Shown piece after piece: positions 14,786 through 49,126 of a stretch of 53,362 nt of DNA (position 1 is its first letter; each line of letters opens with the position of its first letter). The stretch covers positions 1 to 53,362 of the forward strand of contig JALFNS010000016.1 of NCBI GenBank assembly GCA_022773945.1. The letters run 5' to 3'. Under the pieces are notes generated by a model. That model saw only the letters and a program-made list of their open reading frames with translations, made no database searches and was not told the origin of the DNA. This stretch comes from Clostridiales bacterium. Lineage in GTDB: Bacteria; Bacillota; Clostridia; Peptostreptococcales; Anaerovoracaceae. A program made the translations under genes and the position numbers.

Positions 14786-14832
14786 TAGCCAATTTTTATT
14801 AAAGAACGCCCGTATTTACTAAAATTCGACTA
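14786..14832. promoter_or_regulatory. operator site A (47-bp inverted repeat) upstream of the APC permease
   Basis: The left arm is TAGCCAATTTTTA (14786-14798). The right arm read on the minus strand is TAGTCGAATTTTA (14832-14820). Ten of 13 positions match between arms, and the whole 47 bp aligns without gaps with sites B and C. The plus-strand promoter that overlaps the right arm in B and C is lost here (TCGACT, then TTGTAA), which fits the absence of an araC gene on this side. Confidence 0.75.
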
Positions 14833-14861
14833 GAATTATTTACATTTTTTGTAATTTCCTC

Positions 14862-14890
14862 TTGCAAAGGCTTTTGCGGTATGGTATTAT
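14862..14890 (+). promoter_or_regulatory. promoter of the Tad pilus operon
   Basis: TTGCAA (14862-14867) and TATTAT (14885-14890) are separated by 17 bp. The predicted transcript starts near 14897, about 22 nt before the cpaF ATG. The purine-rich AAAGGAAG lies rather far (about 15 nt) from the ATG. Confidence 0.7.
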
Positions 14891-14918
14891 CTCTCTTGAA
14901 AGGAAGATTTTGTAAATA

Positions 14919-16154
14919 ATGGCACATTATTCTACAGAAGACATCGCATCCTATATCAGCGAAACGAGACTGCGCCTTTCGGAGCAGGGAGAACAGCTTA
15001 CCGACAGTCGTGCACTGGAGAGAATTGAGGATTTTGTATTCTCACTTGATAAATCTCAGCTCTGCAGCCACGAGGAGAACAGCCGCCTCATAGAGAGACT
15101 GTTTCTCGCTCTGAGGAGTGAGATGGACATACTGCAGCCGCTTGTCGACGATAAGGATATATCTGAAATAATGGTCAACGGCAAGGACAATATTTTCATC
15201 GAACGGGCCGGGCGCATGGAGAAACTGCCCCTCGCCTTCGACACCACGGAGAACCTTGAAGAGCTTATCCGCCGCATTGCCGGCAAGGTGCACAGAGAGA
15301 TAAACGAGCTCAATCCCATTGTGGATGCCCGCCTCAGTGACGGGTCCAGAGTAAACGCCGTATTCAGAAACGTGGCGGTTAACGGCCCTATTCTCACCAT
15401 AAGGAAATTCCCCGGTGAGGTTATGACCATGGCGGATCTCATACGGAACGGCACTCTGTCTCTCGATGCAGCCCGGCTGCTTGAGCTGCTGGTGCAGTCC
15501 GGATACAACTGCTTCGTTTCCGGCGGCACCTCCAGCGGCAAGACGACGCTTCTGAATGTGCTGGCTCAGCTTATCCCGCCACACGAGCGGGTCGTGGTAA
15601 TCGAAGACTCTATCGAGCTTCAGATAAAACAGGTCGAGAACATAGTGAGAATGGAATGCCGAAGCGGCAATTCCCACGGCAAGGGTGCGGTAGATATGGC
15701 AATGCTGGTCAAGACCAGCCTGCGTATGAGACCGGACAGGATAATAATCGGAGAAGTTCGCGGCGGGGAAGTCTTCCACATGATAAATGCCATGAATACG
15801 GGGCACTCGGGAAGTCTGAGCACCGGTCACGCCAACAGTATCTCCGGAATGCTCAAAAGGCTCGAGGCCATGTTCATGCAGGCTGTGGACTACCCGGTAC
15901 AGGCTATAAGAAGTCAGATTTCCGAAGGAATAGATGTAATCATACACATGACCAGACAGAGCGACGGACAGAGAAAAGTTGTGGAAATCGCCGAGCTTGA
16001 CAGTGTCGTGGACAACGTGATTGTTACAAATACGCTCTATCGCTGTGACACAGGACTTACAGGCAGCAGAATAATACACCGGGAAAAACTTCCCGATGAA
16101 TACCGTAATCCGGAGAAGGGAGACAATGATGATAAGAGATTACTCGAAATATGA
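14919..16154 (+). CDS. cpaF: Tad pilus assembly ATPase CpaF/TadA
   Basis: This is the cytoplasmic hexameric secretion ATPase that powers Tad (Flp) pilus assembly. The 411-residue protein has an N-terminal helical domain, Walker A G-G-T-S-S-G-K-T-T (202-210), the Asp box V-V-V-I-E-D-S-I-E-L (226-235), R-M-R-P-D-R-I-I-I-G-E-V-R-G-G-E as Walker B region, and a G-H-S-G-S-L-S-T-G-H-A-N His box. The length is at the short end for CpaF. It is first in an eight-gene operon and overlaps tadB by 29 bp. CpaE, the CpaB/RcpC secretin parts and a prepilin peptidase are not in this window. Confidence 0.93.
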   Translation: MAHYSTEDIASYISETRLRLSEQGEQLTDSRALERIEDFVFSLDKSQLCSHEENSRLIERLFLALRSEMDILQPLVDDKDISEIMVNGKDNIFIERAGRMEKLPLAFDTTENLEELIRRIAGKVHREINELNPIVDARLSDGSRVNAVFRNVAVNGPILTIRKFPGEVMTMADLIRNGTLSLDAARLLELLVQSGYNCFVSGGTSSGKTTLLNVLAQLIPPHERVVVIEDSIELQIKQVENIVRMECRSGNSHGKGAVDMAMLVKTSLRMRPDRIIIGEVRGGEVFHMINAMNTGHSGSLSTGHANSISGMLKRLEAMFMQAVDYPVQAIRSQISEGIDVIIHMTRQSDGQRKVVEIAELDSVVDNVIVTNTLYRCDTGLTGSRIIHREKLPDEYRNPEKGDNDDKRLLEI

Positions 16155-16875
16155 GCTTTCGGGAAGGGAAAAGCTTACCTTTTATCTCGGCGGCTACGCT
16201 GCCATATTCACCTTGTCCTTCATATTTTACAGGATCCTACTCCTCTCGCTGGCTCTGGGGTTCCTGGTGATTAGGCTGCGTCCCTTTTACGAAGAGTACC
16301 TGGCGGAGAAGCGGCTCATTCGTCTTCAGGAGGAATTCAAGGACATGCTTTATTCCCTTTCCTCCTCTATTTCGTCGGGGCGCCATATGTCTGAAGCAAT
16401 CATGGAAGCACGGGAGAACCTGTCACTCAGTATCTCTGACAATTCCCAGATACTTGCCGAGCTTGCCCACATGGACAAAGCTCTGAAGGAAAACAATGAG
16501 AGCGACAAGGTGCTCCTTGCTGATTTTGCGGAGAGAAGTCACTGCGAGGACATAAGAAACTTCGTTCAGGTGTATACCACATGCAGGAGCATGGGAGGAG
16601 ATCTGGAGAGAGTGATAGCCCGCAGCTGTGACATAATAACCGACAAGATGAATATAAGGAGGGAGATCAGAGCGATTACAGCTCAGAAAAAACTGGAAGG
16701 CAGGCTTATTGCACTGATGCCTCCGGTTATGCTGGCACTGCTCAATCTTCTCTCACCTTCATATATAGAGCCTTTGTACACCACCGCAGGAGGCAGAATA
16801 GTAATGACCGGGGCCCTGGCTGCCATGTTTTTCGGAGTCCGGCTCATGGAAAGGATTTCGAATGTTGAAATCTAG
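16126..16875 (+). CDS. TadB-like pilus assembly membrane protein
   Basis: The protein has 249 residues from ATG 16126, which follows GGAGAAGGGAG. Two N-terminal membrane segments (about 20-55) precede the type II secretion F-like domain (about 60-220), with S-S-S-I-S-S-G-R-H-M-S-E-A and R-S-M-G-G-D-L-E typical of TadB, and then C-terminal membrane helices. TadB forms the inner-membrane platform with TadC, on which the ATPase acts. It overlaps cpaF at the start and the tadC-like gene by 14 bp at the end. It ends with TAG. Confidence 0.85.
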   Translation: MMIRDYSKYELSGREKLTFYLGGYAAIFTLSFIFYRILLLSLALGFLVIRLRPFYEEYLAEKRLIRLQEEFKDMLYSLSSSISSGRHMSEAIMEARENLSLSISDNSQILAELAHMDKALKENNESDKVLLADFAERSHCEDIRNFVQVYTTCRSMGGDLERVIARSCDIITDKMNIRREIRAITAQKKLEGRLIALMPPVMLALLNLLSPSYIEPLYTTAGGRIVMTGALAAMFFGVRLMERISNVEI

Positions 16876-17890
16876 GAAGTCCCCGCCGGAGAGTGAAATC
16901 ACCTCCCGCTACTGCCTCCTAAAACTGAAAAGGCAGATAATTATACTTATACTTGCAGGCTTCCTGGTTCTGGCTCTCGATATGATTACTTCTTCCATGT
17001 CCGGAGGAATCACCTTCATCAGCAAGAAAGGTGAGATATACATGATGAGGCCGGACAGCGGAAGTGCATCTGACAGCTCCGGCGTCACTGCCACAGTTGA
17101 GCTTGAAGACGGAACTCTGGAGAAGAAATTCAATTTCCGTCTGGAACCTCAGGGGAGCAATGATGAAAAAAAGTCGGCTTCTGGAGAACCCTCCGAAGAG
17201 ACCGACCCCCGCGAAGAAGCTGTTAAGGAGCTCACAGATATAGTCTCCTCAATTAATGAAGACGTATCGCATAAATATGTTGCCCTCCCCTCTCATCTTT
17301 CAACAGGTGAGATTATAAACTGGAAGGTTGAGAAGACCGGTAACAGCATTGTTATAATTGCCGGCATGATTCTGATTCTCTTTCTTCTGATAAAAAACAG
17401 ATATGCCCCTCTGCAGAAGCTTCAGAAGGAGCATCAGGAATCAATAGCACGACAGCTTCCGGAATTTGTAAACAGGCTGGTACTGCTTCTCAACGCAGGG
17501 CTTATCCTCAACACAGCCTTCCTGCGCTCTGTTGAGGAAAGCCTCCGGTACAGCGAAAACGACAGCGATTATTTCTGTCGGAACATGAAGAGAATTTACG
17601 TGACCATAGGCAGCACCAACGGCTCCTTCAGCCGGGAGTTCAGGGAGTTCGCCAGAAGCTCCGGCTCCGGAGAGGTCATGAGAATAAGCAATATCATCAG
17701 CGACAATATCAGCAAGGGTGTGGAGCTTACGGATAAGCTGTGCAGTGAGAGCGAGCTTCTGTGGCTCAACAGGAAGAAGTACTGTGAGGAAAAGGGCCGC
17801 ATTGCGGAAACCAAACTCACCCTCCCGCTAACGATTTTTCTTCTTGTGCTGGTCATCATTACCGTGAGTCCCGCCCTGCTTGAATTGTAA
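16862..17890 (+). CDS. TadC-like pilus assembly platform protein with large extracytoplasmic insert
   Basis: The protein has 342 residues. TM1 (about 26-44) is followed by an external region of about 110 residues (45-155) rich in Ser/Glu/Lys, then TM2 (about 160-178), the type II secretion F-like domain (about 190-310) and a final helix (318-340). TadC proteins normally lack such a long insert between the first helices, so this may contact the cell-wall side of the pilus. It overlaps tadB by 14 bp. The pilin gene follows after 21 bp with its own AAGGAGG. Confidence 0.78.
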   Translation: MLKSRKSPPESEITSRYCLLKLKRQIIILILAGFLVLALDMITSSMSGGITFISKKGEIYMMRPDSGSASDSSGVTATVELEDGTLEKKFNFRLEPQGSNDEKKSASGEPSEETDPREEAVKELTDIVSSINEDVSHKYVALPSHLSTGEIINWKVEKTGNSIVIIAGMILILFLLIKNRYAPLQKLQKEHQESIARQLPEFVNRLVLLLNAGLILNTAFLRSVEESLRYSENDSDYFCRNMKRIYVTIGSTNGSFSREFREFARSSGSGEVMRISNIISDNISKGVELTDKLCSESELLWLNRKKYCEEKGRIAETKLTLPLTIFLLVLVIITVSPALLEL

Positions 17891-17911
17891 TAAATGAGAA
17901 GGAGGTATTGA

Positions 17912-18046
17912 ATGAACAAGAAAGGAATGGAACTCGTGCAGGTGGCTATCCTGGTGGCTATAGCCGTCGCTCTGGGCCTTATTTTCAGAACACAGATTAC
18001 AGATTTCGTCAACAGGACTTTCGAAAGTCTGAATCAGTTCAACTGA
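17912..18046 (+). CDS. Flp-type pilin subunit (44 residues)
   Basis: This small gene encodes M-N-K-K-G followed by M-E-L-V-Q-V and a long hydrophobic helix (residues 9-25), ending in a short polar tail with N-Q-F-N. A strong AAGGAGG lies 8 nt before the ATG. The K-K-G/M-E junction looks like a prepilin cleavage site: positively charged leader, Gly at -1, and a hydrophobic assembly helix. Unusually, Glu is at +2 and Gln at +5 rather than Glu at +5. It sits between tadC and tadE, where a Flp major pilin is expected. Its TGA shares one base with the next ATG (TGATG). Confidence 0.82.
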   Translation: MNKKGMELVQVAILVAIAVALGLIFRTQITDFVNRTFESLNQFN

Positions 18047-18453
18047 TGAAACAGATTCTGAGATTACCCGGGAACAGACGCGGCAGCGCCATTGCGGAAG
18101 CAGCCATTGTCCTGCCGGTTACAATCATGGTCACGGTTACGGTCCTTCTGATAATTGTTTTCTTTTCCAATTTATCCATGGAACAGAGCCGTATGCACAT
18201 GGCCATAAGGGAAATCGCCGGAACCGGCGAGGGTCACACAGTGACAGTAAGCAGTCAGCCTGCTTTTTCGGGAAGAATCTCTACGGATGATGAATATGTG
18301 CGCGGGGAAAGCCGACTTACGCTTCCGGATCTTTTCTCAATGCTCAATTCGGACAGTTCATCTGTTGAAGCAAGAGGTCGGAAATGGAATGGAGTTAAAA
18401 ATGCCGGGAACAGCACATGGCTCAGTAAAGCCGGAAACAACAGCCTCAAATAA
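18046..18453 (+). CDS. TadE-like minor pilin
   Basis: The protein has 135 residues. After a basic leader (R-R-G) comes S-A-I-A-E-A-A-I-V-L-P-V and a hydrophobic helix to about residue 42, the classic TadE prepilin-like N-terminus with Glu at +5. The remaining ectodomain is small and Ser-rich. The start ATG overlaps the pilin stop by one base. The 3' end overlaps the DUF5702 gene by 53 bp. Confidence 0.8.
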   Translation: MKQILRLPGNRRGSAIAEAAIVLPVTIMVTVTVLLIIVFFSNLSMEQSRMHMAIREIAGTGEGHTVTVSSQPAFSGRISTDDEYVRGESRLTLPDLFSMLNSDSSSVEARGRKWNGVKNAGNSTWLSKAGNNSLK

Positions 18454-19006
18454 AAAAGGCAGTATAACCGTTTTCATATGCATAACTCTGCCCGTACTGA
18501 TTGCAATGACACTCGCCCTCATCTATGCGGGGCGCGAGATGTCTGCGGTCAGCCGTGCGGACAGCATTATGAATCTGGCGGGTTATTCACTTCTGTCGGA
18601 ATACGATTCCTACGTGCAGGATGAATACGGGCTGTTTCTGGTGAATGTTTCCGATGAGCTTCTTACCCGCAAGCTTAAGAGCTATGTAGGTTTCTCAACC
18701 GCTTCTATGGAGGATATGAATCTTAACAGCTGCCGTGTGTCATCCCGGGGCTACGCAGTCGTGGAGCCTGCCATGATAGAAAACCAGATTATGGAATTTA
18801 TGAAACATCCTTCGGCAGTATCCGCAGCAATAACGGATAAACGGGAGAAAAACACTATGACAGAACATACTCTGAGGCATGGTCCCACGAAGGTGTCTCT
18901 GCCTTCACGGGAGCTTCCCGACAGCAATTTCATAGATAAGGTATCCTCCTTCGGTAACAGTATCAGCAGCGGAGACAACCTGCTGAAGGAAGGAACGGAT
19001 GAATAA
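18401..19006 (+). CDS. DUF5702-type TadG-like pilus protein, N-terminal part
   Basis: The ATG at 18401 has GGAG 6 nt upstream. After a short cytoplasmic lead, K-K-G-S-I-T-V-F and a hydrophobic helix (about 24-45) precede a Glu/Tyr-rich ectodomain with S-E-Y-D-S-Y-V-Q-D-E-Y-G-L-F, the DUF5702 pattern seen in clostridial Tad operons. The reading frame stops at TAA 19004-19006, but the same frame resumes with ATG at 19010 and the missing DUF5702 C-terminal part. This is therefore one gene split by an in-frame stop, or two coupled genes. Confidence 0.7.
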   Translation: MPGTAHGSVKPETTASNKKGSITVFICITLPVLIAMTLALIYAGREMSAVSRADSIMNLAGYSLLSEYDSYVQDEYGLFLVNVSDELLTRKLKSYVGFSTASMEDMNLNSCRVSSRGYAVVEPAMIENQIMEFMKHPSAVSAAITDKREKNTMTEHTLRHGPTKVSLPSRELPDSNFIDKVSSFGNSISSGDNLLKEGTDE

Positions 19007-19009
19007 CTC

Positions 19010-19648
19010 ATGGGGAGCTACATACTGACGATTTTTAACAGCGAAACCACCCTGAGAAACAGTGAGCATTTTTTCAGAAACGAAGTGGAATACATTATGT
19101 CGGGAAAATACTCCGACGAGGAAAATCTGAAAGCTGCCGGCAGAGCGATAAGAGCTCTACGCACAGGTCCCAACCTGGCACACATATATTCCGATCCGAC
19201 TAAACTTGCATCAGTAACGGCCGCTGCGGAAGCAGTCACGCCGGGGCCTCTGGGAACACTGACAGCACTGGGGATAGCCACTGCCTGGGCAGCTGTTGAA
19301 TCGGCAAACGATTTTAATCTGCTTAAATCAGGACACCGCGTTCCTCTGGTCAAGGACAACCTTTCATGGGCCACAGACCTTGACGGCGTTATTTCCGGAG
19401 TCCTCAGTGAAGACAGCACAGAGGCAATTGTTCCTCAGAAGGAATCAGGTCTGAGATACGATGAGTACATGAGAATACTGCTTACAATCAAGGATGATAA
19501 TCTGGTGACAGCCCGCATACTGGATCTGGTACAGATTAATATGAGGAAAAGCCATGACAACGATTTTCTCATAGGCGACTGTGCCGCCGGTCTCTCAATA
19601 AAAGCCACAATAAACGACAGAGACTTCAGCTATGATAAAAAATACTAA
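19010..19648 (+). CDS. DUF5702-type pilus protein, C-terminal part (after in-frame TAA)
   Basis: The protein has 212 residues, in the same frame as the preceding gene and starting 3 nt after its stop. Y-I-L-T-I-F, N-E-V-E-Y-I-M-S-G-K-Y-S-D-E-E-N-L and I-Y-S-D-P-T-K match the typical second half of DUF5702 proteins. It has no signal or anchor of its own, so as a separate protein it could not reach the outside alone. GAAGGAACGG about 12 nt before ATG 19010 might allow re-initiation. A nonsense mutation or sequencing error is equally possible. Confidence 0.6.
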   Translation: MGSYILTIFNSETTLRNSEHFFRNEVEYIMSGKYSDEENLKAAGRAIRALRTGPNLAHIYSDPTKLASVTAAAEAVTPGPLGTLTALGIATAWAAVESANDFNLLKSGHRVPLVKDNLSWATDLDGVISGVLSEDSTEAIVPQKESGLRYDEYMRILLTIKDDNLVTARILDLVQINMRKSHDNDFLIGDCAAGLSIKATINDRDFSYDKKY

Positions 19649-20393
19649 AAAAGGGTCACATACAATAGAGGCTGCTCTTCTGCTCCCTCTGCTCGTGCTG
19701 TCGCTTCTGTCACTGGGCTATATAATACGCTGTGATTCATTATGGGAGAATGCTGTCTACTGCAGTGTCGACGAGTGTATCGCTTTTTCCGAAAAAACCG
19801 TTCCCGTCTCCCCTTCTGTGCTTAGTGACAGAGTGGAGAAACGGCTGATGTCGGAGAGAAATCACCCGGATACCGTGGAGGTGACCAATGTTATCTCCGG
19901 ATATCGTGACGGTCTGAGCAGCAGGCTGACCTCCTTCGCCATAAACGAAGAAGTGCACATGAGTCTTCCCGTCGGATTTGAGAAGGATGTCTCATTCCGG
20001 GGCAAACTCAAGTACAGAAGCTTTTGCGGTCATACCTACAGAAGTTCCGGCATGGGAAGCGAAGGTCTGGAAACCTATGAAGGTGAAAATCCGGTATGGA
20101 TATTTCCGAGACAGGGAGAAAAGTATCACAGCGAAAGCTGCACCTACGTTAAAGCCACCGTCAGAAGTGCTGTTCTGACTTCATCACTTAAGCGGGATTA
20201 TTCACCCTGCGGCCTCTGCGGTTCAGGGGATATTCGTGAAGGAAGCATCGTATTCATTTTTCGAAGCGAAAATTCGGCATACCACCGCAGCACCTGCAGC
20301 TCTATCAACAGACATACAACTGTCATCGACAGATCTGAAGCTGTGGAGCGGGGTTACACTCCCTGCTCCAAATGCGGCGGCGGGGCTGACTAA
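19632..20393 (+). CDS. TadE-like pseudopilin with two C-terminal Cys-rich domains
   Basis: The protein has 253 residues. K-K-G-S-H-T-I-E-A-A and a hydrophobic helix (about 10-33) form a TadE-like N-terminus with Glu at +5. The C-terminal half has two tandem copies of a motif: aromatic strand, Y-H-x-x-x-C, about 20-25 residues, then Y-x-P-C-x-x-C. The copies lie at about 150-199 and 207-250. The same pattern ends many extracellular nucleases and competence-related proteins and is thought to bind metal or be disulfide-linked. Such an arrangement on a Tad pseudopilin is unusual. It overlaps the upstream gene by 17 bp. Confidence 0.78.
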   Translation: MIKNTKKGSHTIEAALLLPLLVLSLLSLGYIIRCDSLWENAVYCSVDECIAFSEKTVPVSPSVLSDRVEKRLMSERNHPDTVEVTNVISGYRDGLSSRLTSFAINEEVHMSLPVGFEKDVSFRGKLKYRSFCGHTYRSSGMGSEGLETYEGENPVWIFPRQGEKYHSESCTYVKATVRSAVLTSSLKRDYSPCGLCGSGDIREGSIVFIFRSENSAYHRSTCSSINRHTTVIDRSEAVERGYTPCSKCGGGAD

Positions 20394-20425
20394 AAGGGGA
20401 TTTATATATAAGAGAGGAAATTGAA

Positions 20426-20962
20426 ATGTGGAGAAACAATGAATACAAGTTATCCCTGCGGGAGGACTCCATACATGAATACGAGAAAATAATGCTGACC
20501 TCGGGAGACTGCGGGTATCTTCTTCCTATGGTTTTCATGGGAGTTAACGATCAGGAGATTGCCTTCTACCAGTGCGGCGGATTCTGCCCTCTCAGCGAGT
20601 TCCGCCTTGAGAAGACAGAGGATGTCATCTACGTGCTTGAGAAGGTGCTCCTCATCCTGAGCAGGGTTCCCGACTATCTTATAACACCTTCGAGACTTAC
20701 GGTCACAGAGGACACCGTATTCTACAACGAGACAAGCGGGGAAATCAAACTGGCCTATGTTCCCCTTCCGGATGAGGATGTGAATATGCGAAAACACCTT
20801 GTCGCCTTCGTAACCCTGCTGGGCAGAGAAATAAGTGACGGGCTGGAGGCCTATCTTGAGGAAGCGGCCGCTCTGGTCGGCAACGCCTCTTTTGAAATCA
20901 GAGACATTGTCAATCAGCTGGGTCTTCTCAGAAGAAAGCTGTATTCAGCCACCGTTCAATAG
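20426..20962 (+). CDS. DUF6382-like protein, last gene of the Tad operon
   Basis: The protein has 178 residues after a GAGAGGAA ribosome-binding site and a 32-bp gap from the previous gene. The pattern (early beta-rich domain, L-L-P-M-V-F, a helical stretch with V-L-E-K-V-L-L-I-L, then V-F-Y-N-E-T-S-G-E-I-K-L-A-Y-V-P) resembles DUF6382, usually the N-terminal half of an FHA-domain protein encoded with clostridial Tad pili. Here no FHA domain or membrane segment follows, so it is a stand-alone or truncated form. The assignment is by pattern only. Confidence 0.65.
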   Translation: MWRNNEYKLSLREDSIHEYEKIMLTSGDCGYLLPMVFMGVNDQEIAFYQCGGFCPLSEFRLEKTEDVIYVLEKVLLILSRVPDYLITPSRLTVTEDTVFYNETSGEIKLAYVPLPDEDVNMRKHLVAFVTLLGREISDGLEAYLEEAAALVGNASFEIRDIVNQLGLLRRKLYSATVQ

Positions 20963-21038: not shown

Positions 21039-22343
21039 TTACAGTTCAACCTTTGTTACCGTAGGGCCGTCCCACCAAGGCTTGAATTCCTTAACAGGAT
21101 CCTGCTCCTTGAAGTACGGATCGTCGTATACGAATCTTCTCTCTACGGTTATCTCCAGCTCCTTAGCCCATTCCAGATACTGATCGTTCTCTTCTTCGGT
21201 AAGCATATCCGATGAGATGAATCCTGTCTGGCTCATCTTATCGTTCACGAAGAGCTTGGTGAAGAGGAATCCGCCCTGTCCTGTCAGGTACTGTTCGCCG
21301 GATACTCCGAACTTCTCGTAGGACTCTGCGAATCCCGGTGCGAAGAGGTGAGATTCAACTCTCACGTCCTTGCCGTCCTTCTTGCCGATAGCTTCAACTA
21401 CGAAAGCTCCGTTATCCGTTACAAGACCTTCGTCCAGGATTTCCTTGATTTCGTGGTCGAAACGCGGCGGTTTAGGCAGAGCATTCAGGATTACGTTGTG
21501 AGTGTTAACCATCTGTCCGTCAATCTCAACCGGTGTTCTCTTGAGGAGTCCTGCTCTGGCCAGAGGCTCTGCGAATTCAACTCCGACGCCGCCGTACTTG
21601 AAGAAAATGTTGTGAGCTCCCTTGAAGAGTGTCTTGCTGTTTCTTCCCATGTAGAACGGTTCATCGTGAGCGTGTTCAACGAATCTTACCGGATATCCCA
21701 CATAATCATAATTTCTGACTATAGGGAATGCGAACGGCTTCGTGTTGACAATCTCGTCATTGATATAAGCAACCGGCAGGTCGTCCATATCATTGAGGGC
21801 AACCTGAGGTGACCACCAGTAAGGCTGGAATCTCTTGGCCTCAACGCCTTCATAAACATTCATGTATATAGTGTCGCATTCATCAATGTCCTTCATTGTG
21901 TCTCTGGCGAGAACGCACATAGTTCCCGGAGCCGAGCCCGTTCCCATTATTGCCAGCTTGTCGATTTCCTTGAACTTCTTGTCATACTCTGTCAGCAGTA
22001 TGTCCATGCACTTTTCCCATGTTTCTGCGAAACCTTCAGGTGCCGCGAAATCCTGATAGTTACACTTGGCCTCAAGAGCTGCTTCTATTACATTGATTCC
22101 GAACTCCAGAGGAAGAGCATTTACAACCAGGTCGCAGCCTTCAATGAGAGGAATGATGTTCTCCTTCTTGCCTGCGTCAACAAAGCATCCCTCTGCCTTG
22201 GTAATGGCTGCTGCCAGTTCCTTGGCAGCTGCTTCGTCATAGTCGGCACATATAACCTTGTCAACATTCGGCTCTCTGTCAAGTCTCTTAACAACAGTAG
22301 TTCCCTGTGCGCCTGTTCCCAGTACTAATACTTTCTTTCCCAT
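21039..22343 (-). CDS. saccharopine dehydrogenase-family oxidoreductase, copy 1
   Basis: The protein has 434 residues; the ATG follows AAAGGAG. The N-terminus has V-L-V-L-G-T-G-A-Q-G-T, a Rossmann NAD(P)-binding loop, and A-D-Y-D ending strand 2 (NAD-type). G-C-D-L-V-V-N-A-L-P and G-T-G-S-A-P-G follow, as in the COG1748 saccharopine/homospermidine dehydrogenase superfamily. It is a paralog of the 47715-49007 gene: both share F-Q-P-(Y/F)-W-W-S-P and Y-L-T-G-Q-G-G. The substrate is unknown; an amino acid or opine-like compound is likely. The promoter has operator site B and the divergent AraC regulator. A MATE gene follows copy 2 but not this copy. Confidence 0.85.
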   Translation of the reverse strand: MGKKVLVLGTGAQGTTVVKRLDREPNVDKVICADYDEAAAKELAAAITKAEGCFVDAGKKENIIPLIEGCDLVVNALPLEFGINVIEAALEAKCNYQDFAAPEGFAETWEKCMDILLTEYDKKFKEIDKLAIMGTGSAPGTMCVLARDTMKDIDECDTIYMNVYEGVEAKRFQPYWWSPQVALNDMDDLPVAYINDEIVNTKPFAFPIVRNYDYVGYPVRFVEHAHDEPFYMGRNSKTLFKGAHNIFFKYGGVGVEFAEPLARAGLLKRTPVEIDGQMVNTHNVILNALPKPPRFDHEIKEILDEGLVTDNGAFVVEAIGKKDGKDVRVESHLFAPGFAESYEKFGVSGEQYLTGQGGFLFTKLFVNDKMSQTGFISSDMLTEEENDQYLEWAKELEITVERRFVYDDPYFKEQDPVKEFKPWWDGPTVTKVEL

Positions 22344-22394: not shown

Positions 22395-22400
22395 ATTATC
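22395..22400 (-). promoter_or_regulatory. -10 box of dehydrogenase copy 1 promoter
   Basis: GATAAT on the minus strand is exactly 23 bp from operator B, matching the spacing at sites A and C. It lacks a consensus -35 box, as expected for an activated promoter. Confidence 0.65.
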
Positions 22401-22423
22401 CACCAGGTTCGGCGCTTGTTCTA

Positions 22424-22470
22424 TAGCTGTTTTTTATTACTTAAATTCATTTTTATCTAAAATTTGACTA
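22424..22470. promoter_or_regulatory. operator site B (47-bp inverted repeat)
   Basis: The left arm is TAGCTGTTTTTTA (22424-22436); the right arm on the minus strand is TAGTCAAATTTTA (22470-22458). It lies between the dehydrogenase and araC genes. The right arm includes TTGACT, the -35 box of the araC promoter. Confidence 0.78.
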
Positions 22471-22492
22471 TAAGACCGGAATATTGTATGAT
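22464..22492 (+). promoter_or_regulatory. leaderless promoter of araC-family regulator 1
   Basis: TTGACT (22464-22469), 17 bp, TATGAT (22487-22492), then 6 nt to the ATG at 22499 with no Shine-Dalgarno sequence. The -35 box is inside the operator arm, so a bound regulator would probably block its own transcription. Confidence 0.72.
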
Positions 22493-22498
22493 TATGAC

Positions 22499-23458
22499 AT
22501 GAAACTTGACAATTACAATCTGACATTTAAGAAGAATCTGCCCTTCCATGCGGAGCTTCTTCATATCACCAAACTCCTCCCCCACAGGCATGAAAAAGAG
22601 CTTGAACTGATCTTCTGCCTTGAGGGTTCCGTTAACATGGAGGCGGCCGATCAGAAGTACACTCTGACCGCCGGACAGATTCATTCAATAGATTATGACG
22701 ACGTGCATCGCATCTGGTCTGACTGTGAGAACACCATTCTCATATTCCACATGGATCTTTCCGCCTTCGATGACTGGGACAAGACGTGCAACATGCTCTT
22801 TTCCTGTGAGAGCAATCACCTCTTCCCCTATCAGGAAAAACCTATGGCGGACGTGAAGGACATAATCCTGTCTCTTTCCTATGAATTCTTCACGGACTGT
22901 CCTTCGCCGGAGCTGTACTATAAGCCTTTGCGCCGGCTTCTGGATATAATCATTCAGTATTTCAACTGGTTCAACTACGAGAACCAGGACAACTACATGA
23001 ATCCGGAACTCTACGAAAGATTTCACCGGGTTCTGGAATACTGCCTGGACAACTACAGGAACAAAATCTCCATATCCAACATTGCCAGAGAGGAGAACAT
23101 AAACAGAAACTACTTCTCACAGTTTATAGGCAAGACCGTATTTTCAAGCTTCAGCAAGATGATAAGCTACATAAGATGCTACTACGCCGAGAGGCTGCTG
23201 CTTGAAACCAGTATGCCAAATTCGGAGATTTCCTTTGAATGCGGATTTTCGGATCCCAAATATTTCTATGCATCTTTTAAGGATATGTGGGGCCGCACAC
23301 CTACAGAGCACAGAAAGATTTATCTGGACTACTACAGGGAATGCCTCAAAATAAAAGGCGGCACCACCGCCGAACTCTTTTCGGACAGTGACGCCGCGTC
23401 ATATATCAAGGATTATATCGGCAGATGGCATCAGGAAAAAATCCTCACTATGCTGTAA
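22499..23458 (+). CDS. AraC-family transcriptional regulator, copy 1
   Basis: The protein has 319 residues from ATG 22499. An in-frame TTG at 22484 precedes the predicted transcription start and is rejected. Residues about 20-95 form a cupin-like sensor domain (H-R-H-E-K-E-L-E-L, G-S-V, L-T-A-G-Q). Residues about 175-275 are the double helix-turn-helix AraC domain, with I-A-R-E-E-N-I-N-R-N-Y-F-S-Q-F and I-S-F-E-C-G-F-S-D-P-K-Y-F. It is a paralog of the 49155 regulator, including a shared C-terminal tail. It likely activates the divergent dehydrogenase and represses itself through operator B. Confidence 0.9.
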   Translation: MKLDNYNLTFKKNLPFHAELLHITKLLPHRHEKELELIFCLEGSVNMEAADQKYTLTAGQIHSIDYDDVHRIWSDCENTILIFHMDLSAFDDWDKTCNMLFSCESNHLFPYQEKPMADVKDIILSLSYEFFTDCPSPELYYKPLRRLLDIIIQYFNWFNYENQDNYMNPELYERFHRVLEYCLDNYRNKISISNIAREENINRNYFSQFIGKTVFSSFSKMISYIRCYYAERLLLETSMPNSEISFECGFSDPKYFYASFKDMWGRTPTEHRKIYLDYYRECLKIKGGTTAELFSDSDAASYIKDYIGRWHQEKILTML

Positions 23459-42975: not shown

Positions 42976-43004
42976 TTTACTAATTCCCGATTTCGTGTTA
43001 TACC
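42976..43004 (+). promoter_or_regulatory. promoter of the DUF6873 gene, predicted leaderless
   Basis: TTTACT (42976-42981) and TATACC (42999-43004) are separated by 17 bp, and the ATG at 43012 is 7 nt further on without a Shine-Dalgarno sequence. Confidence 0.5.
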
Positions 43005-43011
43005 TATATGT

Positions 43012-43821
43012 ATGAAGCAGACATATTTATCGAGACTGGCCGGAAGGCCGCTTACAGAATTCCTTCATAAGCAAGGTTACAACGTCAACTACGTTACGGA
43101 AATCGGACTCATATCCGGCGAGACAACCCACCCCGAGAGGCTACTGGCACTGCGGGGCAATGTAGATTACAAGGTGGACCCCCGAATCGCCACACATGCG
43201 GATGTATACATGTGTCAGCTGGGGCTGTGGGACGAAGCCGGAATTTTCATGGGCGACAGGGACAAACTGGGACCCGTGTACCCTGCGGATATAATATACA
43301 ACGCAGTCTGCACCAGAGACTATTTCATTCATTTCATACAGCATACCGACGAGGAGCTTGTTGATGCTGTCATGACCTGGAGACGCGATCTGGCTCTTCA
43401 CGACATTATCAGGGCCACCTCCGGCAAGGAATCCGGACACCATCTCCCCGACGAGGAAGAAATGAAAATCGTGGGAGTGAGTCAGGGCTACAGCAGGTGT
43501 TCCTGCCTGCCCGTGGACAACACCTCCTTCATCACAGCCGACAGAGGTCTGGCAGGCATACTCGAAAACCAGGGAGCCTCAGTGCTTCTCATAGAAACGG
43601 GACACATCCTCCTCCCCGGCTACAACTGCGGCTTCATCGGAGGCTGCGGCGGCAGCATATATCTTGAGGACGGAACCAGAGCCATCGTTTTCAACGGCAA
43701 CCTGGGAGAACATCCGGACTGCGACAGGATAGAGGAATTCATCAAATGCAGAAACATAATCCCCGTATGGTTTGACGACTACCCTCTCGAGGATATAGGA
43801 AGCATATTCGCCACGGAGTAA
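43012..43821 (+). CDS. DUF6873 family GME-fold protein
   Basis: The protein has 269 residues. V-S-Q-G-Y-S-R-C-S-C-L-P-V, F-I-T-A-D-R-G-L, L-L-I-E-T-G-H-I-L-L-P-G-Y-N-C-G-F-I-G-G and F-N-G-N-L match the pattern I associate with DUF6873, which is related in fold to guanidino-group-modifying enzymes such as DDAH. The usual catalytic H and C positions are not obvious, so enzyme activity is uncertain. It has a predicted leaderless start and is followed 5 bp later by the radical SAM gene. Confidence 0.75.
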   Translation: MKQTYLSRLAGRPLTEFLHKQGYNVNYVTEIGLISGETTHPERLLALRGNVDYKVDPRIATHADVYMCQLGLWDEAGIFMGDRDKLGPVYPADIIYNAVCTRDYFIHFIQHTDEELVDAVMTWRRDLALHDIIRATSGKESGHHLPDEEEMKIVGVSQGYSRCSCLPVDNTSFITADRGLAGILENQGASVLLIETGHILLPGYNCGFIGGCGGSIYLEDGTRAIVFNGNLGEHPDCDRIEEFIKCRNIIPVWFDDYPLEDIGSIFATE

Positions 43822-43826
43822 AAGCT

Positions 43827-44870
43827 ATGAAGAAACACGCCATAATACCGATTTTCATCCCTCACATGGGCTGTCCCAATGATTGCGTATTCTGCAATCA
43901 GAAGGCGATAACGGCCAGAACCGACGAGGTCAGCCCTGAGGATGTGAGAAACACAATAGAAACCTACCTGCCCACACTGCAGTGTCGCGGCCTGGAAACA
44001 ATTGAGGTCGCTTTTTTCGGTGGAAGTTTCACGGGAATTCCCATGGAGGACCAGTCGGCATTTCTCGCAGTGGCACAGGAATACAAACAGGCGGGCATTA
44101 TAGATAAGATTCACCTCTCGACCAGACCGGACTATATCAGCGAGGAGATTCTTGATAATCTGAAGAGTTTCGATACTGACACCATTGAACTGGGAATCCA
44201 GTCCTTCGACGATGAGGTTCTTCTGGCCTCAAACAGAGGCCACACCTCCGAGGATTCGCGTCGCGCCTGCTCAATGATTAAGGAATACGGTTTCGAGCTG
44301 GGAATCCAGCTGATGATAGGGCTGCCGGAAGACAGCATGGAGAAGTGTATCTACTCCGCCCGTGAGGCTGTCAGAATGCAGCCTTCGATAGCCCGTCTCT
44401 ATCCCACAATAGTGCTCAGTGACACCGAGCTTCTTCGCATGTACAGAGAAGGCAGCTACCATGCCCTCACTACTGAAGAGGCTGTGGATATAACCTCCGC
44501 CATGTACAGAATAATCGCGGGAGCCGGTATCAACATCATACGAGTGGGACTGAAGAGCACGGACCTTATTACCGAAGGCGGCGAGATTCAGGGTCACACC
44601 TACCACCCGGCCTTTCGCCAGCTTGTTCAGGGCCGCATAGCCCGGGAGGATCTGGAGGCTCAGCTTCCGCCAATACTCGAACAGACCGACTCCGTGGACT
44701 TCTTTTCATCAGGCAAGTTCTTCTCCGACATGATAGGAAACAGCCGGCGCAACAAGGAATATTTCGAAAACAAATACCCCCACGTAACCTTCCGCTTCAG
44801 GCGGGATGATTCCCTGGGGGATATGGTTTTCGTCGCCGCACCTTCGCCGCGCAAAGGCAGGAGACTATAA
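43827..44870 (+). CDS. Elp3-like radical SAM protein
   Basis: The protein has 347 residues after a CGGAG ribosome-binding site. The iron-sulfur motif is C16-P-N-D-C20-V-F-C23, followed by F-F-G-G-S-F-T-G-I and S-T-R-P-D-Y-I, E-L-G-I-Q-S-F-D. These are the Elp3/MiaB-like radical SAM signatures, as in clostridial radical SAM proteins with a Radical_SAM_C part. There is no acetyltransferase domain, so it is not a full Elp3. The role is unknown; tRNA modification is possible. It shares its last 6 bp with the converging CmpB-like gene. Confidence 0.85.
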   Translation: MKKHAIIPIFIPHMGCPNDCVFCNQKAITARTDEVSPEDVRNTIETYLPTLQCRGLETIEVAFFGGSFTGIPMEDQSAFLAVAQEYKQAGIIDKIHLSTRPDYISEEILDNLKSFDTDTIELGIQSFDDEVLLASNRGHTSEDSRRACSMIKEYGFELGIQLMIGLPEDSMEKCIYSAREAVRMQPSIARLYPTIVLSDTELLRMYREGSYHALTTEEAVDITSAMYRIIAGAGINIIRVGLKSTDLITEGGEIQGHTYHPAFRQLVQGRIAREDLEAQLPPILEQTDSVDFFSSGKFFSDMIGNSRRNKEYFENKYPHVTFRFRRDDSLGDMVFVAAPSPRKGRRL

Positions 44871-45638
44871 AAGTCGTTTTTTTATGTTTTCCTCGGCCTC
44901 TTCAAGCTTCTGTTTCTGGTGTTCAACAGATCGCTCTATAAACTTCTCAAGGTGTTCTCTGATAGGCGTCTCTGAGTGAAATGCCAGCAGAAACCTGTGC
45001 TTCTCCTCCAGTTCTTCTCTTCGCTCCCTGATAAAGTCCTTGAGTTCCTCATATCTGATAACAAGCTCCTTCTCTTCGGCGAAGCTTCGTATCTTTGACG
45101 AGAGATTCAGTGAATAACCCAAGTCTGTAGCGAACACTCCGAAGAACATTCCTATGAAGAAGGAAAAAGCCAGATGATTTGACAGCCACATCACCCAGTC
45201 GATAACGTGTGTATTGACCGTGAAGTAATAAACTGTTCCCAGCGCTCCCCATATAACCGTGAATTTAGGACATATTATGCCTTTGACATTAAGCTTTTCT
45301 CTGCTGTAATCCCACAGTTTGACCTTCATACCCTTCACGAATACGAGTCCTGCAATATACTCTATTACAGTCATTGTCACCGCCATTATTACGAACACCA
45401 TCGCAATGTTGACAAATATATTACTCGTCTCGAAGCTCATAATGAAGCAGGACATGACGAACATTCCCCAGAGGCCGAAACCGTACAGCGGCAGATAGGG
45501 TCCCACGAGAAACCCGGGATTTATCCATTTTCTCTGAGGATTGTTTGACGATACAAATCTTCTGAAAAGCAGCTCGGCACACCAGCCAAGACAGCTTCCT
45601 ATAAAAAACAGAAACGCGAATATTAAAAGAAAATTCAC
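44865..45638 (-). CDS. CmpB-like putative ABC transporter permease (membrane protein)
   Basis: The protein has 257 residues starting at GTG after AAAGGGG. About five to six membrane helices occupy residues 1-185 with G-W-C-A-E-L-L-F, N-P-G-F-L-V-G-P-Y-L-P-L-Y-G and V-I-E-Y-I-A-G, the ABC_trans_CmpB family pattern. The last 70 residues form a charged coiled coil ending in K-K-R-L-L. Despite the family name no ATPase partner is nearby. It lies 23 bp after pgeF. Confidence 0.8.
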   Translation of the reverse strand: MNFLLIFAFLFFIGSCLGWCAELLFRRFVSSNNPQRKWINPGFLVGPYLPLYGFGLWGMFVMSCFIMSFETSNIFVNIAMVFVIMAVTMTVIEYIAGLVFVKGMKVKLWDYSREKLNVKGIICPKFTVIWGALGTVYYFTVNTHVIDWVMWLSNHLAFSFFIGMFFGVFATDLGYSLNLSSKIRSFAEEKELVIRYEELKDFIRERREELEEKHRFLLAFHSETPIREHLEKFIERSVEHQKQKLEEAEENIKKRLL

Positions 45639-45661
45639 CCTTTACCCCTTTCCTGATTCAT

Positions 45662-46354
45662 TTACAGTATGCAGATTCCCGCACCCATCCTCATGTATGT
45701 TCCTCCCTCGCGTCTGTAGGAGCAGAACATTTCAGGCTCGCAGTAGGTGCAGTGACCGTCATCGCTTATGTTTACGGACGGCACGCCGGCATCTTCAAGC
45801 TGGCGCCTGATTATGGCCTTCAGATCCATCATGTTGTTCTCCGTGAAGGAATAGCCCCATTCCAGGTTAAAGGCTCTTATAACCTCATCCCCCACTTCGA
45901 AGCAGCACCTGCTTATGGACGGCCCTATGTGAACCCTGAGATTCTCCGGAGATATTCCGTAGAGTGAAACCATTCGCCTTACCGTCTGAGGACATATTCC
46001 CGCCAGAGTTCCTCTCCACCCGGAGTGAACCATGCCCACCGCATCACCTTTATTGTGAGCGAAGTAAACGGGCGGACAGTCAGCGTGCACCGTGGTTAGA
46101 AGCACGTTTTTCTCCCGTGTCACCGTCCCGTCCGTTGATGGAAGGCTGATGCTGTCTCCGCGAATCATATCACCGGTGATGTCACATACGGTCGCTTCGT
46201 GCACCTGCTGAGGAAACACCCTGAAGGCCTTCTCCAGACCCAGCTCGCTAAAAAGCTCCTCATTATTGTAAGGCGAACCTTCAACGGCTCCCTCCTTAGT
46301 TGAGAAGAAAGCCTTTATTCCCGGTATATCTTCGAAAATCTCCAGATACTTCAT
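45662..46354 (-). CDS. pgeF: PgeF/YfiH (LACC1-like) multi-copper-type purine nucleoside enzyme
   Basis: The protein has 230 residues. T-V-H-A-D-C-P-P-V, V-H-S-G-W-R-G-T and I-G-P-S-I-S-R-C-C-F-E-V-G supply the conserved His/Cys zinc site of the family. These proteins are annotated as polyphenol oxidases but act on purine nucleosides and edit peptidoglycan precursors in E. coli. It lies between MATE (3-bp gap) and the CmpB-like gene, possibly within a long transcript from operator site C. Confidence 0.9.
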   Translation of the reverse strand: MKYLEIFEDIPGIKAFFSTKEGAVEGSPYNNEELFSELGLEKAFRVFPQQVHEATVCDITGDMIRGDSISLPSTDGTVTREKNVLLTTVHADCPPVYFAHNKGDAVGMVHSGWRGTLAGICPQTVRRMVSLYGISPENLRVHIGPSISRCCFEVGDEVIRAFNLEWGYSFTENNMMDLKAIIRRQLEDAGVPSVNISDDGHCTYCEPEMFCSYRREGGTYMRMGAGICIL

Positions 46355-46357
46355 AGT

Positions 46358-47704
46358 CTATTCTCCCAGAATCTTGTAGTTGTACTTCCTGCTGTATTTT
46401 CTCAGGAGCAGGAATGAAAGTCCAAGTGTAAGTATATCGCCGAAAGGCAGTGCCAGCCATGCGCCGTCCATTCCCATAAGCTCCGGCAGTATCAGCAGAC
46501 CTGCCAATAGGAACACCAGCCCTCTGGCGATGGCTATAACAGTGGACACAAGTCCGTTGCCGTAAGCGGTGAACATGTTCGATGCGAAAACGTTGATGCC
46601 TATTACCAGCAAAGACAGAGAAACTATGCGCAGGCCGTTCGAACTCATTTCGAAGAGCTCGCTTCCCGGTCTCTCATATATCATAGTGAGAGGCTCCGCC
46701 AGAATGAAACACAAGGCTGCTATGGCCACCGATGCCACAAGCATATACTTCTTCGTGTATTTCATCACCTTGTTGATTCTGTCTGTCATACCCGCACCGT
46801 ACCAGTAGCTTATGAGCGGCGTGACTCCCACGCTGTATCCCATGTGTACGGACATGAAGAAGTAATGAATATTCAGCACTATGGCCGCTGCAGCCACTCC
46901 TGTCTCTCCCGCCAGTCTGACTACAATCATATTATAGCAGAAGACCATAATTCCGGCAGCGCTTTCGTTGACTAATTCAGGGGAACCGTTAACGAAGCTG
47001 TGACCTATATATCTGAAGTCAGGGTGGAACCTGCTGAATGAAAGACGTGTCTTGGCGAAGAGGAAGTACCCCAGTCCTGTCAGCGCCGTCATCCAGAGTC
47101 CGCCCACATTGGCCACTGCAGCACCTGCAAGTCCCATATGAAGAGGTCCCATGAGAATGATGTCCAGTCCTAGGTGAGTCACACCTCCTCCGATGTATAG
47201 AAATATGGTGAATGCCGGCTTGCCGTCAACCCTTATGAAAAACTCGAAGAGTACTCCGAGAAATGCCGCCGGACAGCCCCATACGAATATCTTGAGGAAG
47301 AGAGCGCAGTCCTTGGCCAGCAGCTCCGTGGCTCCCAGCACGTCCACGACAGGATCCATGAAAATGAACATCAAAAGGGTGGCTCCGCATCCCAGAGCCA
47401 GCCCGAATACACATATGAAAGTGAATTTGCTGTCAGCCTCCCTCATGTTGCCTTTGCCCATCTCTATGGCAACGAGGGCGCTGGATCCGGCGGCCAACAT
47501 TACTGCCACGCCCCACATAAGTCCCTGCACGGGATATGCTATGTTAATGGCCGCCAGTCCTTCTTCTCCCACATAATTAGCTACGAAAATGGAATCAATC
47601 GTGTAGTAGAGAGCCATCACCACCATCATCAGAACCGATGGCCATACGAAGCCTGCGAATTTCTTAGCCGTAAGCTCTCCATTATAAATATCTTCCGAAT
47701 GCAT
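46358..47704 (-). CDS. MATE family efflux transporter
   Basis: The protein has 448 residues and 12 predicted helices, with AAAGGAA before the ATG. It has the MATE start F-V-W-P-S-V-L-M-M-V-V-M-A-L-Y-Y-T-I-D-S-I-F-V and two repeated six-helix halves. It starts 10 bp after the dehydrogenase copy 2 gene, so it is probably co-transcribed from the operator C promoter. It might export the dehydrogenase product or a toxic analogue (inference). Confidence 0.9.
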   Translation of the reverse strand: MHSEDIYNGELTAKKFAGFVWPSVLMMVVMALYYTIDSIFVANYVGEEGLAAINIAYPVQGLMWGVAVMLAAGSSALVAIEMGKGNMREADSKFTFICVFGLALGCGATLLMFIFMDPVVDVLGATELLAKDCALFLKIFVWGCPAAFLGVLFEFFIRVDGKPAFTIFLYIGGGVTHLGLDIILMGPLHMGLAGAAVANVGGLWMTALTGLGYFLFAKTRLSFSRFHPDFRYIGHSFVNGSPELVNESAAGIMVFCYNMIVVRLAGETGVAAAAIVLNIHYFFMSVHMGYSVGVTPLISYWYGAGMTDRINKVMKYTKKYMLVASVAIAALCFILAEPLTMIYERPGSELFEMSSNGLRIVSLSLLVIGINVFASNMFTAYGNGLVSTVIAIARGLVFLLAGLLILPELMGMDGAWLALPFGDILTLGLSFLLLRKYSRKYNYKILGE

Positions 47705-47714
47705 AAATTCCTTT

Positions 47715-49007
47715 CTAGATTTCTTTTATCTCCGTGCCCAGGGTTATTCCCAGTTTCTCAGCATACTCGAAATACCTGTCCACCTGCTTCTGGTTTATCA
47801 TATCCGAGGAGATAACTCCCGACATTCCGTCGAAGGATCCGTCCAGGAAGAGCTTGGAGAAGAGATATCCTCCCTGTCCCGTCAGATACATCTCACCTGT
47901 CATTCCCGCTCTCTCGAAGGATTCCACGAATCCCGGCGCATTGACGTGAGTCTCCACGAGAATGTCCTTGCCATCCTTCTTGCCGTATGCTTCTATAACC
48001 ATGCATCCCGAATCGAGAGCCAGTCCTTCATCTATTATCTCCTGTATTTCCTCTCTGTACTTCGGAGCCGGAGGAATATGACTGAGAACGAAATCAAACG
48101 GCACAATCTTCATGCCATTGAAATCCTCCTCCTCGTGGCTGAGAAGTCCTGCTTCGTAGAGAGGCTTGGCGAAATCCATTCCGGCGCCCGCATACTTGAA
48201 GTAGGCGTTCTTCACACCCTTGAAGTGTGTGTCCTTGTTAAAAGAGTACTGAAGCGGCTCGTCGTGACAGTGTTCCCTGAACACTATAGGTTCATCGTTT
48301 TCCACAAACTTTCTCACCACATCATCACCGAAGGAGTGAGTATTGACCAGCTTACCGTCCTTGAGAGCTATAGCTACCTCGCTCATATCCGTCAGAGCCG
48401 TTATCGGCGACCACCAGAACGGCTGGAAACGCTTCGCATATGCGCCCTCCCAGACGAAGTTGTATATTGTCTCACAGGAATCCAGATATCTCATGGATTT
48501 CTTCGTAGCCGCACAGATAAGTCCCGGCGCCGAGCCTGTGCCGAAGAGGCATAGTTTGCCTATCTCTTCAAACTTAGGACCGTATACATAGTACATCGCG
48601 CAAAGGCTTCTGTACCAGTTGAGAGTGGATTCGTCATCAACATCAGGTTCTTCAGGATGAGCCTTTCTTTCTTCGCTGTTGAGCCATTTGTTATATAGAG
48701 AGATTGTCCCTGCGTAATCCTGATAGTGTGCCTTCACTGCCAGAGCCGCATCGAGAACATTCTCAGTGCACTCCAGAGGAAGACCGTTTATTATAAGGTC
48801 GACACCTTCTGCCGCCGCGATAATACTGTCCAGATCATGTGCATCCACCTGAGCGCCTCTGCCCTTCTTAAGCTTAGCCACCAGGCTTTCAACTGCTTTA
48901 ACGTCATAATCCGCGCAAACGATTTCTTTAACTTCAGGTTCTTCGTCCAATCTCCTGGCTGCTGCACTTCCCTGTGCGCCAACGCCTAAAACGAGTACCT
49001 TCATCAT
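47715..49007 (-). CDS. saccharopine dehydrogenase-family oxidoreductase, copy 2
   Basis: The protein has 430 residues; the ATG follows GAGGTG. V-L-V-L-G-V-G-A-Q-G-S forms the Rossmann loop and A-D-Y-D ends the second strand. G-V-D-L-I-I-N-G-L-P, G-T-G-S-A-P-G, F-Q-P-F-W-W-S-P and Y-L-T-G-Q-G-G-Y-L-F-S-K-L-F are all shared with copy 1. It has a longer insert near residues 105-130 (E-E-R-K-A-H-P-E-E-P). The catalytic substrate is unknown. The promoter holds operator C with the divergent AraC copy 2, and MATE follows on the same strand. Confidence 0.85.
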   Translation of the reverse strand: MMKVLVLGVGAQGSAAARRLDEEPEVKEIVCADYDVKAVESLVAKLKKGRGAQVDAHDLDSIIAAAEGVDLIINGLPLECTENVLDAALAVKAHYQDYAGTISLYNKWLNSEERKAHPEEPDVDDESTLNWYRSLCAMYYVYGPKFEEIGKLCLFGTGSAPGLICAATKKSMRYLDSCETIYNFVWEGAYAKRFQPFWWSPITALTDMSEVAIALKDGKLVNTHSFGDDVVRKFVENDEPIVFREHCHDEPLQYSFNKDTHFKGVKNAYFKYAGAGMDFAKPLYEAGLLSHEEEDFNGMKIVPFDFVLSHIPPAPKYREEIQEIIDEGLALDSGCMVIEAYGKKDGKDILVETHVNAPGFVESFERAGMTGEMYLTGQGGYLFSKLFLDGSFDGMSGVISSDMINQKQVDRYFEYAEKLGITLGTEIKEI

Positions 49008-49050
49008 AATTTCACCTCAAATCTTGTTTTCAGAATTATCGTTCACATAT

Positions 49051-49056
49051 ATTATC
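49051..49056 (-). promoter_or_regulatory. -10 box of dehydrogenase copy 2 promoter
   Basis: GATAAT on the minus strand is exactly 23 bp from operator C, as at sites A and B, again with no consensus -35 box. Confidence 0.65.
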
Positions 49057-49079
49057 ACCCCGAGCAATTTCCTAAACAG

Positions 49080-49126
49080 TAGCCGTTTTTTATGCAAATC
49101 CCATAGAGAAATCTGAAATTTGACTA
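49080..49126. promoter_or_regulatory. operator site C (47-bp inverted repeat)
   Basis: The left arm is TAGCCGTTTTTTA (49080-49092); the right arm on the minus strand is TAGTCAAATTTCA (49126-49114). The flank AACAGTAGCC is shared with site A. The right arm contains the -35 box of araC copy 2. Confidence 0.78.

Follow-up and report, generated by a model that had tools for sequence, protein, structure and literature searches.

The AraC protein of Escherichia coli joins a ligand-binding domain to a domain with two helix-turn-helix (HTH) motifs, and its inducing half-sites are direct repeats. For the operators of this and related regulators we draw on excerpts of the papers cited. AraC half-sites are given as TAGC-N7-... 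(PMC4514859), and the RhaR operator has two 17-bp half-sites in inverted orientation, separated by a 17-bp spacer (PMC3870299). At rhaBAD RhaS does not bind its two half-sites equally, and the −35 region falls within half-site 2 (PMC12858550). The gene for CdhR of Pseudomonas aeruginosa is divergent from its target operon; the protein, described as a class-I activator of the GATase-1 subfamily, binds direct repeats in the shared intergenic region, and self-inhibition has been proposed (PMC5806209). Here we describe an inverted repeat that occurs three times in a 53,362-nt stretch of DNA (the window; positions 1 to 53,362 of contig JALFNS010000016.1, assembly GCA_022773945.1, a Clostridiales bacterium of the Anaerovoracaceae). 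It is probably the operator of a compact regulon controlled by an AraC-type protein, AraC1, and in this lineage also by its paralogue AraC2. The predicted targets are an APC-family permease and two dehydrogenase-like proteins, SDH1 and SDH2, the latter followed by a MATE exporter.

An initial annotation had placed gap-free 47-bp sites at 14786-14832, 22424-22470 and 49080-49126, upstream of the permease gene and between two divergent dehydrogenase/araC pairs; coordinates, alignment and locations were all borne out. The inverted repeat also stands, but the real conserved unit is 51 bp, with 2 bp more on each side in a 51-bp matrix. The three loci had been called unlinked, and they are indeed separate transcription units, but all lie inside 34.4 kb of one contig. 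Each operator consists of two ~17-bp half-sites in inverted orientation ~17 bp apart. The distal (araC-side) arm reads TATAGTCAAATTTTAG / TATAGTCAAATTTTAGT and the proximal (target-side) arm TATAGCCGTTTTTTAT / TATAGCCGTTTTTTATC, with an information content of 0.8-1.9 bits at arm positions of the 51-bp matrix. The centre, described as free, is so at positions 24-29 of 51 (0-0.1 bit), but its A-rich shoulders reach 1.3 bits. The two arms agree at 11 of 17 positions, and their mean identity within a site is 10.4/17, against 5.7 ± 1.4 when columns are permuted, a value as high being reached in 2 of 2000 permutations. They are nevertheless not equal: position 6 is T in the distal arm of 44/44 sites and C in the proximal arm of 43/44, the exception being the Anaerovorax site described below, and this inequality is kept in 43/44 sites. 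Common to both arms are the boxes TATAG.C and TTTTA, about a helical turn apart, a spacing that would suit the paired HTH motifs of a single AraC-type monomer. The distal arm is still TAGTC-like at permease sites that lack an araC gene, and its conservation thus goes beyond a promoter role.

The operator is rare. When the host genome (G000, 1.83 Mb) was searched with a two-arm pattern allowing three mismatches, only the three window sites were matched, plus site 1 read backwards, and a reversed control pattern matched nowhere; there is no crowd of copies in unrelated or coding places. Across the genus the pattern marks 43 places in 29 of 49 genomes, with two matches for the control, and each site-bearing genome has one to three strong copies. 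A sequence-only profile, trained on 26 of these sites and applied with strict filters to at most 121 candidates per genome, gives 42 of the 43 places at least 32.7 bits, and the next match among those listed has 15.9. Because those 26 training sites included the window's own, we made the separate 51-bp matrix from 38 sites, leaving out the window species and its closest relative, G027. On the target strand the window sites score 68.5, 37.9 and 21.9 bits with this matrix, and they are all that it finds there; no other distinct place in the window exceeds −9.5 bits, and 40 simulated windows gave 0.8 at best. We also searched 393 genomes of the order, 369 of them outside the genus, with the two-arm pattern rather than the more sensitive profile. 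In this sample, places at three mismatches outside the genus (15) are no commoner than control matches (22), and a wide distribution beyond the genus was therefore rejected. A single place there, at one mismatch, lies in genome G350, which appears to be Anaerovorax odorimutans SL.3.17, of the same family as the window genome.

Conservation upstream of orthologous genes was found in relatives, mainly at SDH1 and the permease. Within three mismatches there are 43 distinct sites, 42 of the genus and the Anaerovorax one, with the place G016:C11 and contigs L146 and L209 left out of the tally; 24 face SDH1, 12 the permease, three SDH2, three a contig edge and one, the Anaerovorax site, an amidohydrolase-SDH gene pair. 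The same arm is turned towards the target in all 40 sites with a visible target gene. Across the site stands an AraC gene in 24/24 SDH1 cases, 3/3 SDH2 cases and 2/12 permease cases, and at the Anaerovorax site; in the window, as first noted, such a gene adjoins two of the three sites, AraC1 at site 2 and AraC2 at site 3. SDH1, in some cases as fragments only, is present in 32 genomes, and the 24 with a site before it leave eight, which include fragments in G011, G020 and G021. Strict sites before SDH2 occur in three genomes only (G000, G027, G063). The predicted core of the regulon is therefore SDH1 and the permease, and SDH2 is a variable member. The MATE gene, suggested earlier as a member, is a plausible one: it probably shares the SDH2 transcript, and follows SDH2 also in G017, G018, G026 and G032, although in G017, G018 and G032 no operator stands directly before SDH2.

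Promoter geometry is nearly invariant. Among 44 sites (extra contigs included; offsets counted from the 47-bp core), 42 have a hexamer within one mismatch of TATAAT at exactly 23 nt on the target side. At other offsets from 14 to 25 such a hexamer occurs in 0/44, and at offsets 26, 28, 32 and 33 in one to two of 44. The hexamer 17 nt before the target −10 has at least three mismatches to TTGACA in 38/44 sites. The proximal half-site adjoins the −35 region of the target promoter, a position as in RhaR/RhaS-type operators (42/44 sites). With a good −10 and no recognisable −35 beside this half-site, a bound dimer would recruit RNA polymerase there. On the other side the distal arm ends in TTGACT, which would serve as the araC −35 hexamer, and binding would thus also repress the regulator's own gene. 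No ribosome-binding site is seen before the ATG of either window araC gene (22464-22499, 49120-49155) and the ATG lies just beyond the −10 (Table 1), so these two messages may be leaderless. An araC-side −10 is present in 27/44 sites, 13 of them with the first ATG 5-8 nt beyond; several of these also carry a Shine-Dalgarno-like motif further down, and the leaderless layout is thus not general.

Both regulators belong to the AraC/XylS family, with an N-terminal cupin domain and a PF12833 match over the gathering score (E 1.3e-14 for AraC1, 5.7e-16 for AraC2). AraC1 is no orthologue of RhaR or RhaS, scoring 36.4 bits against the NCBIfam RhaR model (cut-off 363) and 29.7 against RhaS (288). AraC1-like proteins, defined by at least 47% identity to AraC1 (a cut set from the list of matches), occur in 26 of 49 genus genomes, and all 26 carry a site. 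Thus AraC1 is present in 26/29 site-bearing and 0/20 site-less genomes (Fisher p 6e-11, not corrected for kinship). One protein inside the cut, G063:C49, is closer to AraC2; a second G063 protein is 50% identical to AraC1. In the SDH1 tree, genomes with SDH1 and neither site nor AraC1 (G022, G023, G025 and G068, the last read as L152 with the same coordinates) occupy two or more branches on which upstream DNA is visible, namely G025 and the G022/G023/G068 group; G020, a would-be third branch, starts at a contig edge and was not counted. In the G022/G023/G068 group the permease and SDH1 are now neighbours on one strand, and in species without AraC1 and site (L101, L140, L152, L157) the permease lies directly before SDH1 on one strand. 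Upstream of the permease in G023 (L157) is a gene weakly matching LuxR-type regulators.

Conservation at orthologues, few copies, fixed geometry and co-occurrence with AraC1 strongly support the earlier proposal of a dimeric-regulator operator that defines a regulon. We put at about 80% the probability that AraC1, and here also AraC2, binds these operators as a dimer, activates the promoters of the permease and the dehydrogenases and represses the gene that encodes it. The dimer would occupy the two half-sites, about three helical turns apart, and in its ligand-bound form would bring RNA polymerase to the promoters of the permease, SDH1 and SDH2-MATE (class-II activation). At the same time it would mask the −35 of the araC promoter on the other side and so repress that gene. 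What the sequence itself shows is how the operator is built, how it is conserved, which genes it faces, the promoter geometry and the link with the presence of AraC1; that AraC1 or AraC2 is the binder, that it activates its targets rather than represses them, that it represses its own gene and that a ligand acts through the cupin domain are inferences. The inducer is likely to be imported by the permease and to be amino-acid-like or an amine.

Several observations weigh against this. AraC operators are more often direct repeats, and CdhR, as excerpted, is one example. Sites without AraC1 occur in G065 (93% complete), G011 (71%) and G012 (74%). SDH2 has no site directly before it in 15 other genomes viewed, nor does SDH1 in G063 or the permease, directly before it, in G018, and the 3-mismatch place G016:C11 is missed by the profile. 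That place (19427-19473) lies 57 nt from a gene for a 31% AraC paralogue.

Bound AraC1 or AraC2 might instead mainly repress the permease and dehydrogenase promoters, with ligand lifting the repression, since a protein on the proximal arm, which ends beside the −35 region, could stand in the way of polymerase. We consider this unlikely: the conserved −10 with a poor −35 at the targets is what activator-dependent promoters are expected to show, and the fixed 23-nt spacing suits contact with polymerase. That another regulator binds the repeat, the AraC genes being merely nearby, would account for the 10 of 12 permease sites without an adjoining AraC gene and for the site in G065; it is a good deal less probable still, given that sites accompany AraC1 in every genome that has it, that AraC1 is absent from every site-less genome, and that site and AraC1 are both missing at SDH1 on two separate branches of its tree. 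Instead of a DNA operator, an inverted repeat could also be a mobile or extragenic repeat, or a hairpin that acts in RNA as attenuator, terminator or riboswitch, readings that we regard as scarcely credible. The repeat lies upstream of the target −10 and contains the araC −35, and so should not be transcribed from either promoter, and a mobile repeat would hardly keep to so few strong copies per genome or to a fixed orientation to the next gene start (40/43 sites).

Table 1. Operators, promoters and genes of the proposed regulon in the window
Feature	Coordinates	Strand	Remarks
Operator 1, 51 bp	14784..14834	−	towards APC permease; half-sites 14784-14800 (proximal), 14818-14834 (distal)
Operator 2, 51 bp	22422..22472	−	towards SDH1; half-sites 22422-22438 and 22456-22472
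Operator 3, 51 bp	49078..49128	−	towards SDH2-MATE; half-sites 49078-49094 and 49112-49128
Permease promoter, −10 hexamer TATGAT	14757..14762	−	23 nt beyond 47-bp core
SDH1 promoter, −10 hexamer GATAAT	22395..22400	−	23 nt beyond core
SDH2 promoter, −10 hexamer GATAAT	49051..49056	−	23 nt beyond core
araC1 promoter, TTGACT-17-TATGAT	22464..22492	+	−35 within distal half-site; ATG 6 nt past −10
araC2 promoter, TTGACT-17-TATTAT	49120..49148	+	−35 within distal half-site; ATG 6 nt past −10
AraC1, cupin and AraC-type HTH	22499..23458	+	longest open reading frame from TTG 22484
AraC2, AraC1 paralogue	49155..50120	+	41% identical
APC-family permease (target 1)	12982..14724	−	Pfam PF13520; start likely ATG at 14709
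SDH1, saccharopine/carboxyspermidine-dehydrogenase-like (target 2)	21039..22343	−	Pfam PF03435
SDH2, SDH1 paralogue (target 3)	47715..49007	−	46% identical
MATE exporter	46358..47704	−	start 10 nt after SDH2

Directly right of site 1 (14919-20393) are Tad/type II secretion-like genes, among them a TadA-like ATPase and a T2SSF gene; several relatives likewise have the ATPase close to the permease or to its operator.

Recognition helices and half-sites seem to vary together. AraC proteins beside strict sites have the common helices NYFSQF and GFSDPKYFY, Anaerovorax included, with TYFSQF in the G016 protein, and the helices differ in all three full paralogues compared that lie away from strict sites (L135, L137, L209_123). 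The G067:C12 paralogue (SDPQ for SDPK) adjoins a degenerate site with arms TAGTT/TTGTT for TAGYC; the G026:C41 paralogue, with its first helix changed, adjoins one with a changed inner box in the arms. These paired changes, albeit few, suggest that the second HTH reads the outer box. In G350:C260 both helices are changed, beside a degenerate site of the same layout, and a fourth distant paralogue, G014:C57, has no clear site. Changed half-sites beside changed-helix paralogues were seen at L281 5128-5175 and 8107-8153, L280 2595-2642 and L279 7853-7899, and such pairs possibly form a natural specificity series. At L279 2609-8911 the genome taken to be Anaerovorax odorimutans SL.3.17 has a second AraC paralogue (39%), accompanied by a degenerate site and opposite genes for an MFS transporter, two amidohydrolases and a DUF3237 protein.

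Lysine had been guessed as the compound handled and finds no support. Both dehydrogenases exceed the PF03435 cut-off, and SDH2 also matches PF16653, below its cut-off. The best solved relative of SDH1 is PDB 8deb, a carboxyspermidine dehydrogenase, matched over nearly the full length (E 1.4e-27 with a family profile), and carboxyspermidine dehydrogenase is the nearest solved protein for SDH2 as well. Next for SDH1 come 4ina, 4rl6 and 8h4z, whose depositors named them saccharopine dehydrogenases; of these, 4RL6 and 4INA appear to be carboxyspermidine dehydrogenases according to excerpts of PMC10413350. With the carboxyspermidine/carboxynorspermidine dehydrogenase model NF043000 (cut-off 800 bits), SDH1 scores only 45.7 and SDH2 18.7. 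The catalytic triad of BfCASDH is given there as His228-Glu229-Glu230 (PMC10413350). It is not kept in the profile alignment of SDH1, where H224 stands opposite His228 and A-H comes next; two residues on, H226-D227-E228 is invariant and might be its equivalent. The partner decarboxylase, TIGR01047, is absent from G000 and over the cut-off in 0/49 genomes, with weak matches in 12; as a control, the same model matches 6 of 14 named genomes, one of them over the cut-off.

A role in polyamine biosynthesis was considered and is weakened by the missing decarboxylase, the sub-cut-off scores and a separate carboxynorspermidine-synthase-like gene in the host genome (G000:C29; 163 bits, cut-off 800). 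Adjoining that gene (L278 5561-8502) is one for a 513-residue protein 26% identical to AraC1, and both C29 genes were matched again, close together, in G003, G007, G008, G016 and G027. In a distant relative (L202 3180-8955) an SDH homologue has as neighbours a carboxynorspermidine-synthase-like gene and genes for an ABC transporter of the spermidine/putrescine type, a setting that leaves a polyamine link of the SDH family as a lead.

The permease matches NCBIfam amino-acid and amine transporter models only below their cut-offs. Among relatives, the permease is found next to SDH, amidohydrolase, SDH and MATE genes stand together in G026, and MATE accompanies SDH2 in several. As a guess that we would sooner doubt than trust, these neighbours suit a pathway in which an N-substituted amino compound undergoes uptake, release and oxidation. 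Equally speculative is a broader proposal, in which regulators of the AraC1 family respond to an N-substituted amino acid or a polyamine conjugate and govern an anaerobic pathway, so far undescribed, of the Anaerovoracaceae. It would comprise APC uptake, release by an amidohydrolase (some species only) and the splitting of a secondary amine by SDH1/SDH2 with NAD(P). If it were true, SDH1/SDH2 would represent a new family of enzymes, neighbouring carboxyspermidine dehydrogenase, and the altered-helix paralogues beside shifted operators a series for reading the AraC-DNA code.

As far as searched, this would be a compact AraC regulon of a known kind that is new in its operator, targets and host. 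In the open-licence literature we found no paper naming both Anaerovoracaceae and saccharopine dehydrogenase, and excerpts of some of the papers with Anaerovoracaceae and words beginning 'arac' gave no account of this regulon. A ruminant-gut genus, represented here by metagenome-assembled genomes only, gains a well-defined regulon with a precise operator, in which a permease, two enzymes of unassigned substrate and an exporter are grouped as one job. A named strain, Anaerovorax odorimutans SL.3.17, has the operator too and might serve for work on the regulator and its substrate, and the operator's fixed geometry and unequal half-sites offer a clean test of inverted-repeat AraC activation outside the Proteobacteria.

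Set beside the systems introduced above, as far as the excerpts describe them, the layout equals that of E. coli RhaR at rhaSR, with 17-bp half-sites 17 bp apart, and the conserved inequality of the arms recalls RhaS (rhaBAD, rhaT), for which at rhaBAD one half-site is bound more tightly and the other includes the −35. Compared with RhaR/RhaS, however, the half-site sequence differs, the other end of the operator holds araC's own −35, the targets are an APC permease and dehydrogenases, and the host is one of the Clostridia. AraC of E. coli shares its domain plan with AraC1 and AraC2, and the TAGC of its half-sites is also present in the proximal arm, whereas its inducing half-sites are direct repeats and ours an inverted one. 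CdhR resembles the arrangement proposed here in its divergent gene and proposed inhibition of that gene, but has direct repeats and belongs to the GATase-1 subfamily, against an inverted repeat and a cupin domain here. On the enzyme side, carboxyspermidine dehydrogenase (8deb) is the nearest solved relative of SDH1, from which SDH1 departs in the His-Glu-Glu motif and in the lack, among the 49 genomes, of a partner decarboxylase over the cut-off.

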